Position numbers and translations under genes: made by a program. A model generated the notes under the pieces. That model searched no databases. It saw only the letters and a list, made by a program, of their open reading frames with translations, and was not told the DNA's origin. Positions 4,428-41,234 of a stretch of DNA of 64,000 nt are shown here, in pieces. Position 1 is the first letter of the stretch, and each line of letters begins with the position of its first letter. The stretch comes from Curtobacterium sp. MCBD17_032 (GTDB taxonomy: Bacteria > Actinomycetota > Actinomycetes > Actinomycetales > Microbacteriaceae). Location: NCBI RefSeq assembly GCF_003234855.1, contig NZ_QKTO01000003.1:62001-126000 (forward strand), read 5' to 3'.

Positions 4428-6647
4428 TCAGGACACCGTGACGGTCTTCGTGCCGAAGTCCACGTACTTGCCGCTCGGCAGGTCCTGGTACCAGACCCGC
4501 ACGCTGTGCCTGCCCGGCTTCACGCCGGTCAGCGTCACCGCCAGGCCGACGTCCGACCCCCAGCCCGGGTGCGCCTTCTCGACGTCGGCACGGACCGCGT
4601 CCGCGCTCCTGGCCGCCGCCCCGACACCGTCGAGGTGGACCTTGTACTTCACGGGCGCCGTCGTGTCCGGGTCGATCGCCCACCCACGGACGGCGACCGT
4701 GCCCACACCACCGGTCGCAGAGTCGAACGCGCCACGCACCGGCCCGGTCGAGGCGGTGGGCGCGGGAACCGGTGCCGGCGCCGGGCTCGTCACCGTGACG
4801 GTCTTCGTGCCGAAGTCCACGTACTTGCCGCTCGGCAGGTCCTGGTACCAGACCCGCACGCTGTGCCTGCCCGGCTTCACGCCGGTCAGCGTCACCGCCA
4901 GGCCGACGTCCGACCCCCAGCCCGGGTGCGCCTTCTCGACGTCGGCACGGACCGCGTCCGCGCTCCTGGCCGCCGCCCCGACACCGTCGAGGTGGACCTT
5001 GTACTTCACGGGCGCCGTCGTGTCCGGGTCGATCGCCCACCCACGGACGGCGACCGTGCCCACACCACCGGTCGCAGAGTCGAACGACCCGCGGAGCGGC
5101 TTGTTCGCGGTCGCTGCGGCGGTGACGGACACCGACTTCTCGGCGACCTCGACCCACCGCGTCCCGGGCTTGTCCTGGGTCCAGAGCGACACCGTCCGGG
5201 TGCCGGCGGTGACGTTCGTGATGGTCCTCGAGAAGCCGACCGTCGCGCTCGCACCCGGGTGGGCCGCCGCGACGTCCGTGCGGACCTTGTCGGTGGTGGC
5301 CGAGATCGCCCCGACTCCGTCCACCTGCACCTTGTAGGCGGTCGCTGTGGACGAGTCGCGGTCGAGCACCCACCCGCCGACGGCGATGGACGCCGCGCCG
5401 CCCGTGACCGTCTCGAGGTTCCCGGCCGGCATCGTGTTCGCGGTCGTGGCGGCCGCCACCGTCACGTCGCGGCACTCGAGCATGGTGTTCGAACCCGCTC
5501 CGACGTTGATCCCGTACACGCACACGGTGTGCTTCCCTGCGGCGATCCCCGTCAACGTGGTCTGGAAGGCGTGCGCCGTGTTGTCCGCTCCGAGCGAGGG
5601 AGCGAGGTCGGCACGGACACGGTCCGCCGGGATCGAGGCCTTGCCCTTGCCGTCCAGGTAGACGTGCGCCCGGATCGGGTCGGTCGTGTCGGGGTCCGCC
5701 GTCCAGCCGCGCACCGTGACCGTCCCGGCGCCGCCGGTGACCGCGTCGAGCGAACCGACGGGCGAGGAGCCACCGGTGGGCGAGCCGAACCAGTCGGTGT
5801 ACATACGCCAGAAGTTGCGGTTGCCGTAGGCCGAGCAGCTGTCGCCGCTGCCGTACAGGTTCGCCATCGCGGCCGTGTTGGGCGTGTACGGCGTGTAGAT
5901 GTAGAGCCCCGCCGTGGCCTGGTTCTGGATGTAGACCGTCTTCCGGCCACACGCGGCGTTCGGGTTGTACAGGACGGCGTTGTTCCGCCCGGCCTGGTAC
6001 GCCCAGGACGACGGCGTGGCCTGGTAGCGCTTGAACTGCAGCGCCGCGGCGTAGACCTGCTGCGCGAACCCGCGGAAGGCGGGGTCACACGGGGCGGTGT
6101 CCGGGCACGCGAAGCCGGTGGCGTGCTGGTACATCCAGTTGGTCGGCCGCGACGTGGCGATGATGCCCTGCTCCTTCTCGAGCAGGACGATGAGCGCCTT
6201 CTGGCTGATGCCGCACGCCGCGCCCACCTGGGCGATGATCGTGGCAGCCGACTTGTTGCCGCCGGCGATCGCGTTGCACCGCCCGCTGACGGCCTTGATC
6301 GCCGTGACGTTCTGCGTGAAGTCCTGCAGGCAGACCGGCCCACCGCTCTGCTGCTTGCAGTTCGGCGCCACGCTGTTCAGGAAGGACTGCACGCCCGAGG
6401 CGTTCATGGCCGAACCGTCGAAGAAGTTCCGGTCGCTGATGAGGTTGCCCGGGTCGAAGTTCGCCGCGACCGCAGCCGAGGCGGACTCGGTCGTGGTCGT
6501 CTCGGCGACGACGGTGCCGACCGTCAGGCCGCTCACCGCGATCGCCAGCGCGGCGACCATGCCGAGCACGGAGCGCAGCGGGCGCACGGGCCGGCGACGG
6601 CCCTGCCGGGTCCGGGGGTCGCTGTCGGTCGTTTCGATGGAACGCAT
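4428..6647 (-). CDS. Secreted surface protein with C-terminal GW-type repeat modules
   Basis: This 739-residue exported protein has an arginine-rich n-region and hydrophobic segment (about 26-48) forming a long signal peptide. The N-terminal globular domain (about 63-290) has several cysteines and the motif LLEKEQG (155-161). It resembles a domain found at the surface of many actinobacteria and could be a wall-binding or lysozyme-like module, but I do not assign catalysis. Four repeats of about 100 residues follow, each opening with a VRGW-DPDTT-like motif. The last two are identical over about 97 residues. The ATG at 6647 has GGAGG 7 nt upstream and shares one base with the TGA of the lipoprotein upstream (TGATG). 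Confidence 0.8.
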   Translation of the reverse strand: MRSIETTDSDPRTRQGRRRPVRPLRSVLGMVAALAIAVSGLTVGTVVAETTTTESASAAVAANFDPGNLISDRNFFDGSAMNASGVQSFLNSVAPNCKQQSGGPVCLQDFTQNVTAIKAVSGRCNAIAGGNKSAATIIAQVGAACGISQKALIVLLEKEQGIIATSRPTNWMYQHATGFACPDTAPCDPAFRGFAQQVYAAALQFKRYQATPSSWAYQAGRNNAVLYNPNAACGRKTVYIQNQATAGLYIYTPYTPNTAAMANLYGSGDSCSAYGNRNFWRMYTDWFGSPTGGSSPVGSLDAVTGGAGTVTVRGWTADPDTTDPIRAHVYLDGKGKASIPADRVRADLAPSLGADNTAHAFQTTLTGIAAGKHTVCVYGINVGAGSNTMLECRDVTVAAATTANTMPAGNLETVTGGAASIAVGGWVLDRDSSTATAYKVQVDGVGAISATTDKVRTDVAAAHPGASATVGFSRTITNVTAGTRTVSLWTQDKPGTRWVEVAEKSVSVTAAATANKPLRGSFDSATGGVGTVAVRGWAIDPDTTAPVKYKVHLDGVGAAARSADAVRADVEKAHPGWGSDVGLAVTLTGVKPGRHSVRVWYQDLPSGKYVDFGTKTVTVTSPAPAPVPAPTASTGPVRGAFDSATGGVGTVAVRGWAIDPDTTAPVKYKVHLDGVGAAARSADAVRADVEKAHPGWGSDVGLAVTLTGVKPGRHSVRVWYQDLPSGKYVDFGTKTVTVS
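4434..4729. repeat. Exact direct repeat, copy A (296 bp)
   Basis: Identical base for base to 4791-5086, with a 357-bp period. It encodes the last repeat module of the 739-residue surface protein. Silent sites are also identical, so the duplication is recent or maintained by gene conversion. Confidence 0.95.
4791..5086. repeat. Exact direct repeat, copy B (296 bp)
   Basis: Second copy of the exact 296-bp direct repeat. The two copies are separated by 61 bp that encode a Pro/Ala-rich linker. Repeats of this kind can expand or contract by slippage or recombination and may also cause assembly collapse. Confidence 0.95.
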
Positions 6648-37902: not shown

Positions 37903-38084
37903 ACCGGATCGCGCTGGATTGTCCCCCGAAATGACGACTGACGTCCCACGGCGGGGCGGGGCATCATTGTCTGTGTTCGGTGTTCTTCGATGAAGTGCAT
38001 CGACGGTCGGTGGCCGACTAGGGTACGAAGCCACTGCCGTGCGAGTCAGGGCGATATTCGGGTTGTCGCTCTGCCTCGGGTCGC

Positions 38085-38119
38085 GAACGGGCCGGTCGGT
38101 AGCTCCGACCGGCCCGTTC
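38085..38119. terminator. Perfect 15-bp hairpin after the kinase-like gene
   Basis: Arms 38085-38099 and 38105-38119 with a TAGCT loop. It lies 44 bp after the stop of the minus-strand signalling operon and can terminate it. Confidence 0.7.
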
Positions 38120-38163: not shown

Positions 38164-39237
38164 TCAGTCCGCCGAGCTGGCCGCCGGTGCCGCCGACCGT
38201 GGGATCGCCAACCAGAGCGCCACCGAGTCGTCGTCCTCGTCGTCGTCCTCGTCCGCCGCGCCCAGGGCCGCGGACTCGCTCTCCGCGGCGTCGAGACGGA
38301 GCCCCACCACGGTGACGGCCTCGTCGGCACCGTCCGGCACGGTCCGGACGATCACGTTGTCCGCCTGCTCCTCGTAGGCCCGCCGCAGCGCATCCGCGAG
38401 CTCGGCGTGCACGCGCGCGAGTTCGGTCGCCCCGAGGTCGTCCAGCCCGCCGTCGTCGTGCAGCTGCACCACGGCGCCGCGGCGACGGAGGCGCATCACC
38501 TCGCCGCGGACGTCCTCCGACAGCAGGGACCGACCGCGGATCTCGTCCCGGATCGCCTGCTCGAGGTGCAGGCTCTCCGCACGCTCGCCGGCGTCCAGGT
38601 CCCCGCAGGTGTCGATGATGCGCTGGAGCATCGGCAGCGCCATGCGGGTGGTCTGGCCGAGGCGCACCTGGCGCTCCGACACGTGGGCGTCCTGCGCCGC
38701 CTGCCAGTCCACGGTCTCCTGCTCGGCGCGGACGAAGTCCCGCGTGATGCGGTTGGCGTGGTTCATCGCGATCGAGAACCCGGTCGCGACCGACAACCAG
38801 ATGACGCTGCCGAGCGCGCCGAGCTCCCCGAGGGCACCGGGTCCGGCCCACGCCACCGAGTGCACCGTGCAGAACAGCACACCGGCCCAGGCGAACGGCC
38901 CCCGCTGGCGGACGGCGAGCACCACCATGAGCGTGCCGACCGCTGCGATCCACCACGTGGAGTAGGTGGGTGCCACGCTGAGGTCGACGACCGGCGCGCA
39001 GACCACCGGCATGACGAACGCGGTCGCGAGCGCGAAGCACGCGACCCACACCGGCAGCGCCGAGCCACGGACGAACAGCGCGAGTGCCGTCGCCGCGGCG
39101 TAGAGGACCATGCACGACACCACACGCGCGGCGTCGGCCCCGTCGGTGGGCAGCGTGGACGCGGCGAGCACCAGGTGGACGAGCGAGAACAACGCGGCGA
39201 GGCCGGTGGCGCTCCCGGCCGTGACGGTCGCCCTCAC
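38164..39237 (-). CDS. Membrane protein resembling a histidine kinase that lacks ATP-binding motifs
   Basis: This 357-residue protein has about six hydrophobic segments in its N-terminal 190 residues, then a helical linker (residues about 190-250) like a DHp region without a clear phosphoacceptor His. A C-terminal region shows VHAELADALRRAYEEQADNVIVRTVP where a sensor kinase would carry its N box, but the Asn and the DxGxG ATP-binding motifs are missing. An Asp/Glu-rich run follows. The GTG overlaps the TGA of the genuine kinase (GTGA). I infer a sensor or regulator of that kinase rather than an enzyme. Confidence 0.65.
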   Translation of the reverse strand: MRATVTAGSATGLAALFSLVHLVLAASTLPTDGADAARVVSCMVLYAAATALALFVRGSALPVWVACFALATAFVMPVVCAPVVDLSVAPTYSTWWIAAVGTLMVVLAVRQRGPFAWAGVLFCTVHSVAWAGPGALGELGALGSVIWLSVATGFSIAMNHANRITRDFVRAEQETVDWQAAQDAHVSERQVRLGQTTRMALPMLQRIIDTCGDLDAGERAESLHLEQAIRDEIRGRSLLSEDVRGEVMRLRRRGAVVQLHDDGGLDDLGATELARVHAELADALRRAYEEQADNVIVRTVPDGADEAVTVVGLRLDAAESESAALGAADEDDDEDDDSVALWLAIPRSAAPAASSAD

Positions 39238-40484
39238 CGGAGCCCCTCCGTCGACGCGTCCGGCTGCGGTGCCGGCCAGCGGAGCAGGATCCGCGTCCCC
39301 GCGCCCGGCGCGGACAGCACCTCGGCGAGGCCGTCCGCGGCCGCCATCCGCTCGACGATCGACCGCCGGACACCGAGTCGCGCGGCGGGGACGGTGCTCC
39401 GGTCGAAGCCGACGCCGTCGTCGGCGACCTCCACCCGGATGCCCGCGTCCGCGGTGTCGATCGTCACCCACCTGCGGACGTCGTCGCCGGCGTGCTGGAC
39501 GCTGTTCACCGCCGCCTGCAGCGCGGCGGACGCGAGGGCATCGGCGGCGGAGGTGGGGACGGCCGGCCCGTCCGACGACACACTGCGGACCTCGACGGGG
39601 GCAGCGAGCGTGGTGACCGACGTGACGATGCGGTCCCGGAGCACGGCGTACGGCACGACCGGGTCCTCCCCCGGGCCGTCCGCCGCCGCGGCCGCGAGGT
39701 GGTCGATCGCGTTGCGTGCCATCCGGGCCGCGAGCGTCTTCGCCTCGATCGTGTCCGCCCGGGCCGCGGACAGCAGGGTCGTGAGCACGCTGTCGTGCAC
39801 GATCGCGTCGACCTGGACGCGCTCGACCTCGGTGGCGTGCTCCCGGATCGCCCTCGAGTAGCGGCGCACCGCGGTCGCCTGGGCGACGTCCACGGCCGCG
39901 GCAGCCCGGCGCAGCACCACGATGAGCACGAGGGCCGCGATGCCGAGGACGCCGGTGTACACGCCGTCGAGCAGCGCGCGCTGCAGGCCGACCGCCCCAC
40001 CCGCCGGCGACAACCGCAGCACGATGTACACGAGCGGGACGAGGGCGTTGTAGACCGCCGCCCGCCAGGTCGCGAAGCTGAGGGACGCCGCGATCGTGCC
40101 GACGTTGCAGAGCCACCACGGCCACGGGATCTCCGCCGCGGTGAGCGGTTCACGGACGGTGAGCGGGAACGTCACCAGCGCGACGAGGAACAGCAGGGCG
40201 CAGAGGATCTGCGCCGGCTGCGCCCACCGCTGCGCGAACGCCGACGCGCCGACCGCCAGGAGCGACAGCCCGACCACGATCGTCGTCGCCGGTGCCCAGA
40301 ACGGGTCGAGCGACGGCAGCTGCTTGAAGAGCGACGGTGTGTTCACCGCGCCGAACCCGATCGCCGCGATCGCCATGAGGATCGTGAACGCGCGGTCCAG
40401 GGACGCCTGCGTGATCGTGGCACGCACGGACCGGGACGGGTCCGCCATGGCGGCGTTCGACGTGACGACCGCCTCGGCCGTCAC
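39234..40484 (-). CDS. Sensor histidine kinase with multiple transmembrane segments
   Basis: This 416-residue kinase has about six hydrophobic segments (residues 30-195), a DHp-like helix with IVHDSVLTTLLSA (His230 as probable phosphoacceptor), the N box ALQAAVNSVQHAG and the G box VEVADDGVGFD, closing with GAGTRILLRWP. This is the NarL/DesK-type architecture. The GTG at 40484 is 24 bp after the response regulator stop, giving the order regulator, kinase, kinase-like protein. Signal unknown; the polytopic sensor suggests a membrane-state or small-molecule cue. Confidence 0.88.
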   Translation of the reverse strand: MTAEAVVTSNAAMADPSRSVRATITQASLDRAFTILMAIAAIGFGAVNTPSLFKQLPSLDPFWAPATTIVVGLSLLAVGASAFAQRWAQPAQILCALLFLVALVTFPLTVREPLTAAEIPWPWWLCNVGTIAASLSFATWRAAVYNALVPLVYIVLRLSPAGGAVGLQRALLDGVYTGVLGIAALVLIVVLRRAAAAVDVAQATAVRRYSRAIREHATEVERVQVDAIVHDSVLTTLLSAARADTIEAKTLAARMARNAIDHLAAAAADGPGEDPVVPYAVLRDRIVTSVTTLAAPVEVRSVSSDGPAVPTSAADALASAALQAAVNSVQHAGDDVRRWVTIDTADAGIRVEVADDGVGFDRSTVPAARLGVRRSIVERMAAADGLAEVLSAPGAGTRILLRWPAPQPDASTEGLR

Positions 40485-40508
40485 GAGGACCGCCGGGCGC
40501 AGACGTCG

Positions 40509-41234
40509 TCAGCGACCATCGCCGTCGGGGTCGATGCCGGAGTCGAGCCCCGGCAGGATCCCGTCCTCCACCGCACGACGGAGCAGGTCGACCTTGGTCG
40601 GAGCCGGACGCCCGACCTCGACGTACTTCACGCGGATGCGGTCGAGGTACTCCCGCGCCGTCGAGTACCCGATGCCGAGCTGCTGGGCCGCGAGCTTGAG
40701 CGGCAGCCCCGATGCGTACAGGTGCAGGATCTCGCGCTCCCGCCGGCCGAGCTGCGCCTTCGCGAAGTCCCGGTCGGCGTCGATCGCGCTCGCCCACTCG
40801 AGGTTGTTGAGGACGTCCCCACGCGCGACCGTCGCCACGGCGGCCATCACGGTCTTCGTCGCGGAGGACTTCGGGATGACGCCGGCGGCCCCTGCCGCCA
40901 GTGCCTCACGGACGTTCGCCACGCGGTCGGCGATGCTGTGCACGAGGACGGCCGAGCCGGTGCCCTGCACGCCCTTGACGTTCTCGGTGACCGTCGATCC
41001 GTCGCCGAGCGACAGGTCGAGGACGACGACGTCGACCTCGCGCCCGCCGAGCTGCGCGATGTACTCCGGGACGCTCGCGGCGGTGAGGACCACCTCGAAC
41101 CCCTCGTTCTGGCACGCGGCCTGGATGCCCAGTCGGACCGACTCGTGGTCGTCCACGACGGCGACCCGGACCGGTCGTGTCCCCGGACCGGCAGTCCCTG
41201 TCGTGCCGGTCGATGTGCTGGTGGTGTCTCCCAC
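40509..41234 (-). CDS. Response regulator, NarL/FixJ (LuxR-type HTH) family
   Basis: This 241-residue DNA-binding regulator has a receiver domain (about 22-140: VAVVDDHESVR, phosphoacceptor D73 in VVLDLSLGDGS, and PKSSATK near the conserved lysine) and a C-terminal LuxR-type HTH (LGRREREILHLYASGLPLKLAAQ, then GYSTAREYLDRIR). The first 20 residues are a Thr-rich tail. GTG 41234 has AGAGG 5 nt upstream and gives a compact receiver; a longer in-frame extension upstream has no receiver-like content. It is the first gene of the operon. Confidence 0.9.
   Translation of the reverse strand: MGDTTSTSTGTTGTAGPGTRPVRVAVVDDHESVRLGIQAACQNEGFEVVLTAASVPEYIAQLGGREVDVVVLDLSLGDGSTVTENVKGVQGTGSAVLVHSIADRVANVREALAAGAAGVIPKSSATKTVMAAVATVARGDVLNNLEWASAIDADRDFAKAQLGRREREILHLYASGLPLKLAAQQLGIGYSTAREYLDRIRVKYVEVGRPAPTKVDLLRRAVEDGILPGLDSGIDPDGDGR

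Follow-up and report, generated by a model that had tools for sequence, protein, structure and literature searches.

Why should a bacterial two-component operon carry, besides a response regulator and a histidine kinase, a third gene for a membrane protein that is laid out like the kinase and lacks its catalytic motifs? The question is raised by a stretch of 64,000 nucleotides (nt) from Curtobacterium sp. MCBD17_032 (contig NZ_QKTO01000003.1, positions 62,001 to 126,000), hereafter the window, in which a LuxR-type response regulator, a histidine kinase and a third membrane protein are encoded in that order on the minus strand (Table 1). A first-pass annotation, made from the letters alone, had described this order with overlapping or abutting genes, and the description holds: 24 nt separate the regulator gene from the kinase gene, and the kinase stop and the third-gene start share the four bases GTGA. 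The answer towards which we lean is that the operon encodes an asymmetric kinase, most simply a heterodimer, with one active subunit and one dead subunit that would play a regulatory part.

Judged by its motifs, the partner kinase is intact: the H, N, G1 and G2 motifs are present together with a Pfam match to HATPase_c (E-value 2.1e-7), and H230, D231, N327, D355, G357, G359 and G371 are invariant in 60/60 sequences. Its AlphaFold2 model has a predicted local distance difference test score (pLDDT) of 89.1, and the catalytic and ATP-binding (CA) domain resembles those of VraS (Z 15.7) and DesK (Z 14.7) among solved structures. The closest named kinase family is MacS (NCBIfam NF047322, 56.6 bits over residues 79–404), yet the score lies far under the family cut-off of 300. 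The regulator, whose conservation is very high across 60 sequences, matches the Pfam families Response_reg (E 1.1e-14) and GerE (E 3.3e-4, under the curated cut-off).

The third protein differs in every one of the motifs that were looked for. The first-pass annotation had seen no phosphoacceptor His, N box or G box in it, and had pointed to a profile search for a HATPase domain as the check that could overturn this view. The window protein matches no Pfam and no NCBIfam family at E-values up to 1; HATPase families are absent from all 58 family members scanned with Pfam (at E up to 0.1) and from six further, distant members. (The same scan of the 58 returned seven unrelated families, each matched by one member.) At residue 197, the position of the phosphoacceptor, His occurs in 0/212 sequences; this residue was matched to kinase H230 through a shared ER motif, in a hairpin alignment of our own. 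Another histidine, H185, is frequent (54/60 sequences in one alignment, 127/212 in a larger one) but stands 12 residues ahead of the canonical position. The N-box region (residues 277–285) has no conserved Asn, and DxGxG strings occur in only 8/212 C-terminal parts, at scattered positions. The absences noted at the outset are thus confirmed, with H185 as a common histidine elsewhere.

The predicted fold nonetheless resembles that of a kinase, with moderate support. The AlphaFold2 model of the third protein (from an alignment of 58 sequences; pLDDT 90.4, predicted template modelling score 0.66) has six helices of membrane length, then a long helix plus hairpin and, last, a small alpha/beta domain, although a plain hydropathy scan gives five peaks only, against the six helices of the model. 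The kinase model likewise has six membrane-length helices; in both models the fourth is short and the last extends into a long coiled helix and hairpin, in line with the shared layout proposed earlier. Foldseek places DesK (E 0.094) and HK853 (E 0.12) at the top, though weakly. With VIA-align the best CA-only match is the DesK CA domain (3ehg; Z 9.0, root mean square deviation 2.6 over 90 residues), and all 36 of the 50 matches listed that fall within residues 160–352 are histidine kinases or CheA. DesK therefore resembles the third protein more weakly than it does the kinase and, unlike DesK and VraS, the third protein has no ATP-site motifs. Taken together, the model and the missing motifs support the view that this is a degenerate kinase-like protein, as first suggested, with a predicted dimerization and histidine phosphotransfer (DHp) hairpin and a CA-type fold without catalytic residues; sequence profiles on their own do not demonstrate the kinship.

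The degenerate protein had also been suggested to act as a sensor partner or regulator, and the partner role receives strong, if indirect, support from the gene overlap, the co-occurrence with the kinase and the fusions described below. The three genes occur together and in the same order in 59/59 loci of a first set; in a larger set all three are present in 138/139 loci, the exception being one without a regulator match, and since order and a single strand are kept in 138/138 three-gene loci, the arrangement is not due to chance. These loci were gathered by way of the third protein, and some places are counted twice (two collections, overlapping stretches); such repeats are also present in the first set, in the 212 aligned sequences and in the frames counted next. 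Among 241 third-protein frames, 220 have a separate kinase just upstream, 17 are fused to the kinase and four have no kinase in the fetched stretch: three of these sit at its edge, and the fourth (L133) is only a short fragment. Where the two genes are separate the 4-nt overlap recurs in 192/220 pairs, and 205/220 lie within 4 nt of each other.

The arrangement had been called uncommon. This does not stand: within the Microbacteriaceae it is the rule, the third protein being found in 186/249 genomes and 60/85 genera (the kinase in 214/249 genomes), and its distribution reaches other actinobacterial families. The co-occurrence across the family that had been put forward as a check is close to strict. 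With thresholds set by hand from the genome match tables, 183 genomes match the kinase strongly (E≤1e-30), and 182 of these match the third protein strongly as well; the remaining genome (G029) does so more weakly, with a profile E-value of 1.8e-36. Strong third-protein matches are confined to genomes that also match the kinase strongly. One copy is kept in each of the four small genomes (1.1–1.5 Mb) that were queried. At class level 32/394 genomes match the third protein, 20 within Microbacteriaceae and 12 outside. Two of the latter are weak matches excluded from the family, G473 (L136) and G562 (L135): the G562 protein is a genuine kinase, weakly matched by the third-protein family profile in its N-box region. 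Two weak matches in the Microbacteriaceae table (G162 and G234) were likewise dropped, being unconfirmed by profile. In the family f11, probably a family of Mycobacteriales to judge from plasmid matches, 49/81 genomes have a third-protein match, some of them with several copies. The plasmid matches themselves comprise ten Rhodococcus records, one Gordonia record and one Pseudarthrobacter record.

A further connection between the two proteins is provided by natural fusions. Kinase and third protein form one open frame, kinase first, in 13/49 context loci, all of them distinct (the 17 fused frames of the larger count include four repeats). They come from eight genomes: seven loci from the Frondihabitans-type genomes G246, G004 and G201, two from G155, and one each from G713, G695, G722 and G340. 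In three fusions examined with Pfam the HATPase match is confined to the kinase half. One of the 13 is a chain of 771 amino acids encoded at L274:7042–9354 on the minus strand. In three fusions (L285, L308 and L309) a regulator is encoded immediately upstream in the same orientation; L300 faces a regulator on the opposite strand, and L310 adjoins another complete triad. When the fused state is mapped on a quick tree of 134 third proteins, a minimum of five changes is required, four of them forced by well-supported branches; gain and loss of fusion are indistinguishable on this tree, which contains long branches (L285 with L134), some fused rows among them, and was built leaving aside 80 named loci (L141–L220), short fragments and three edge pieces. 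The G340 fusion occurs only in G340 itself among the 81 genomes of its family. Because kinase and third protein constantly travel together, overlap by four bases and have repeatedly fused, we consider that they probably work as one unequal pair.

Could the third protein simply be a kinase duplicate in decay? Its catalytic motifs are missing, as such a duplicate's might be, but the protein is under constraint. An alignment of 58 sequences has 26 invariant columns, and in the set of 212 a series of residues is nearly so: E226 (208), R230 (211), D231 (210), R234 (210), R251 (211), G254 (208), D261 (209) and R298 (210). All of these sit in the cytoplasmic part and none in the membrane part. Q195 (133/212) and T196 (128/212) are unconserved beyond Microbacteriaceae-type sequences. 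In seven Curtobacterium comparisons the ratio of nonsynonymous to synonymous substitution (dN/dS) is 0.08–0.45 for the third protein and 0.20–0.44 for the kinase, and in six of the seven it is the lower for the third protein; the values come from a simple counting method applied to comparisons picked from the fetched loci, with some synonymous sites near saturation. Given these ratios, the co-occurrence with the kinase, the presence in 60 genera and the fusions, the protein is not a decaying copy, and we reject the decayed-gene explanation, to which we attach next to no credence.

How might an unequal pair of this kind work? In the asymmetric kinase that we propose, the operon would encode a three-protein sensor. 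Kinase and third protein would come together by their membrane parts, which match in having six helices, and by their DHp hairpins, the kinase subunit holding both the sole phosphoacceptor (H230) and the sole ATP site and phosphorylating Asp73 of the regulator. The membrane part of the dead subunit may share in sensing and make up a single sensing unit with that of the kinase; the CA-like domain of the dead subunit, rigidly attached and acting with E226, R230, D231, R234, R251, D261 and R298, may set the on/off balance of the kinase: the charged network would fix the pose of the dead subunit and in this way gate its partner. The physical complex, its heterodimer geometry and the direction of regulation, like the signal and the target genes, are matters that we infer.

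Several observations weigh against this asymmetric pairing. For the third-protein model Foldseek returned 0/219 matches at E≤0.001. A VIA-align Z of about 9 is modest, since unrelated models score 7–8 and helical ones higher according to the tool's own note; the kinase model, given the same treatment, reaches Z 14.7 against the same DesK chain (3ehg). The comparison of hidden Markov models of both proteins, recommended in the first-pass annotation, did not settle their kinship: the whole profiles align over the membrane parts only (probability 21%, E 0.001) and, compared by parts, give E 0.054 for the membrane and a non-significant E 0.19 for the cytoplasmic part. For eight of the 13 fusions the stretch that was fetched contains no match to the regulator (L272, L273, L274, L275, L278, L280, L281 and L287, seven of them from Frondihabitans-type genomes); the Frondihabitans-type genomes in question also carry an ordinary triad, whose regulator these fusions might feed. 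Moreover a fusion speaks for functional association rather than for a heterodimer, and a fused chain could pair with a second copy of itself. Finally, in one comparison (L180) the dN/dS of the third protein is above that of the kinase. Because sequence profiles do not settle kinship, we grade the common origin of third protein and kinase suggested by the models as likely and no higher.

The weak Foldseek E-values and the non-significant cytoplasmic comparison would also suit an unrelated six-helix membrane protein, its coiled hairpin and alpha/beta domain having become kinase-like by convergence. The lack of HATPase in the 58 plus six relatives would fit as well, as would a search of PDB sequences with the third-protein family, which found unrelated chains only (the transmembrane protease 2e7v at E 0.0014, others at E 0.6 or more). 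We think convergence quite unlikely: it sits poorly with the 36 listed structural matches within residues 160–352, every one a kinase, with the weak match of the family profile to the N-box region of a genuine kinase, and with the membrane layout, the domain order and the position beside the kinase, all of which agree with kinship.

That the sequence-level likeness is confined to the membrane part raises another explanation, in which the third protein serves as an accessory sensor or inhibitor in the membrane and touches a homodimer of the kinase by way of the membrane helices, in the style of LiaF/LiaS or RocA/CovS, its kinase-like cytoplasmic part being no more than a leftover scaffold. PMC12675982 names LiaF and RocA as accessory proteins, and co-occurrence, gene overlap and fusion suit any tight one-to-one partner. 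However, seven of the near-invariant residues (R230, D231, R234, R251, G254, D261 and R298) are cytoplasmic, which is not expected of a mere leftover, and we regard the accessory sensor as unlikely, if worth keeping in mind.

The active kinase itself supplies an argument for a third alternative. Kinases of the HisKA_3 type are expected to carry the phosphatase Gln of a DxxxQ motif five residues past the His; the kinase has Thr there in 47/60 sequences, Ala in 9/60 and Ser in 4/60. Phosphatase activity might thus have shifted to the partner, which retains a DHp-like hairpin and could act on the regulator rather than on the kinase, binding it as a phosphatase, sink or adaptor. The poor conservation of Q195 and T196 outside Microbacteriaceae-type sequences speaks against this, and we would give it little weight. 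We return, therefore, to the asymmetric kinase with its dead regulatory half. A wider statement, which we put forward tentatively as something short of probable, is that a widespread class of actinobacterial sensor kinases consists of obligate pairs of one active and one dead subunit, in which the ATP site of the latter has been exchanged for an invariant charged network holding the pair together, and that the pair has repeatedly been locked into a single chain, giving kinases with a regulatory pseudo-half of their own.

Histidine kinases are taught as homodimers and, to our knowledge, dead-kinase partners amount to a few scattered cases. DivL and CckA, for example, are encoded apart and belong to another lineage, whereas the pair described here shares an operon and is repeatedly fused. 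The likeness is that of a dead kinase-like protein steering a true kinase: DivL, as presented in PMC9491836, has no kinase role and controls the kinase CckA. The closest documented parallel is the FasB/FasC pair of Streptococcus (PMC12675982), in which a kinase and a proposed pseudokinase are encoded in one operon and form heterodimers, and no homodimers, in two-hybrid tests. As in FasB/FasC/FasA, a regulator and two kinase-like membrane proteins share an operon (here in all 138 three-gene loci). The kinase domain of FasC is dispensable, while its phosphoacceptor H246 matters for signalling, according to the same paper; here, unlike in FasC, that His is absent from 212/212 sequences, and the two systems are likened by description only. 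RetS/GacS, as outlined in PMC12675982, also involves regulation by contact between a kinase and a kinase-like protein, a contact that we infer in the present case; there, separate loci and both homodimers and heterodimers are described, in contrast to the operonic, co-occurring and fused state found here. A laboratory-evolved pseudokinase form of ChrS, from a LuxR-type two-component system of Corynebacterium, is reported in PMC9491836 to be inactive and yet to alter signalling; truncated ChrS made no contact with HrrS in the two-hybrid test recorded there. That pseudokinase is the product of a laboratory frameshift, whereas the third protein belongs to what appears to be an old, conserved family.

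Dead-kinase partners as such are thus already known; what seems to be new is a pseudo-histidine kinase partner that is conserved, operon-encoded and recurrently fused. In the open-licence literature, searched by titles and the openings of abstracts (most subscription papers lie outside that scope), the family was not recognised. It is present across most Microbacteriaceae and beyond, went unnamed in our Pfam and NCBIfam scans, and has its two halves co-encoded, co-occurring and repeatedly fused. It would offer a natural test bed, single-chain versions included, for the control of a live half by a dead one, and suggests that missing subunits are to be found among the "hypothetical protein" genes that stand next to kinases.

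Table 1. Coordinates in the window of the three genes and their features.
Feature	Coordinates	Strand	Basis or remark
Response regulator, 241 amino acids	40509..41234	-	GTG start; receiver and LuxR/GerE-like DNA-binding domain
Regulator phosphoacceptor Asp, residue 73 (codon)	41016..41018	-	Assigned by motif
Intact histidine kinase, 416 amino acids	39234..40484	-	Six membrane helices, DHp with H230, HATPase domain
Kinase phosphoacceptor His, H230 (codon)	39795..39797	-	Motif VHDSVL; invariant 60/60; assigned by motif
GTGA, 4-nt overlap of kinase TGA stop and third-gene GTG start	39234..39237	-	Direct sequence reading
Third protein, 357 amino acids, putative pseudo-histidine kinase	38164..39237	-	No Pfam/NCBIfam family; AlphaFold2 pLDDT 90.4; predicted DesK-like fold
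Third protein, membrane part, residues about 7–165, six predicted helices	38743..39219	-	AlphaFold2 model helices; five hydropathy peaks
Third protein, DHp-like hairpin, residues about 166–236, with T197, ending in the RDEIRGR signature	38530..38742	-	Model helices 141–209 and 216–234
Third protein, CA-like domain, residues about 237–349, without N box, G boxes or ATP lid	38191..38529	-	DesK 3ehg match; alignment columns
Perfect hairpin, 15-nt arms, 44 nt past the third gene, without T run	38085..38119	.	Inverted repeat

The hairpin of Table 1 possibly marks the end of the operon; scans for promoters and for consensus terminators returned nothing. An 11-mer, GGGTACGAAGC, found at 38021 (+) and 41315 (-), was considered as a regulator site shared by both ends of the operon and dropped, because 22 of 100 shuffles yield as many matches at one mismatch. 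The third protein of the window is 94% identical to that of Curtobacterium sp. MCJR17_055.

Little about function is to be learned from the neighbouring genes of the window, which encode a TRAM/uracil methyltransferase, a carboxyltransferase, Maf, a biotin carboxylase and a biotin ligase; at other loci the neighbour clusters vary widely. In 123/132 loci the gene before the operon is a TRAM/uracil-methyltransferase gene, as recognised by a short motif (and by Pfam for the gene in the window). In f11 the same neighbour clusters recur around the triad (L291, L292, L293 and L301), those of L291 including a penicillin-binding protein, two GT87-type mannosyltransferases and ribosomal protein S6. Nine plasmid loci were opened, in all of which the third gene is annotated as a hypothetical protein. 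Five, on Rhodococcus plasmids (L266, L268, L269, L312 and L314), have an annotated cutinase-family protein nearby, that of L266 combining RCC1 repeats with a cutinase domain; the Gordonia plasmid locus has a neighbour of 1351 amino acids with cadherin-like and Ig-like domains, and three of the nine have neither kind of neighbour. These data offer a lead, not a result, towards a role at the envelope or surface of the cell.

Tandem kinase/third-protein units, two on one strand, occur in f11-type genomes (L247, L252, L258 and L261) and suggest local duplication. In L313, on a Rhodococcus koreensis plasmid, the gene in the regulator position (4820–6328) is annotated "protein kinase" and its frame matches the regulator profile; it is possibly a fusion of a Ser/Thr kinase with a regulator, or a mix of annotations. 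In several f11-type loci the third gene is followed by a small LuxR-type protein consisting of the DNA-binding domain only (for instance L291:6516–6959 on the minus strand; GerE, E 8.2e-9), and annotated HTH (helix-turn-helix) genes likewise follow it in L267 and L268. This small protein is a possible fourth component of the system.

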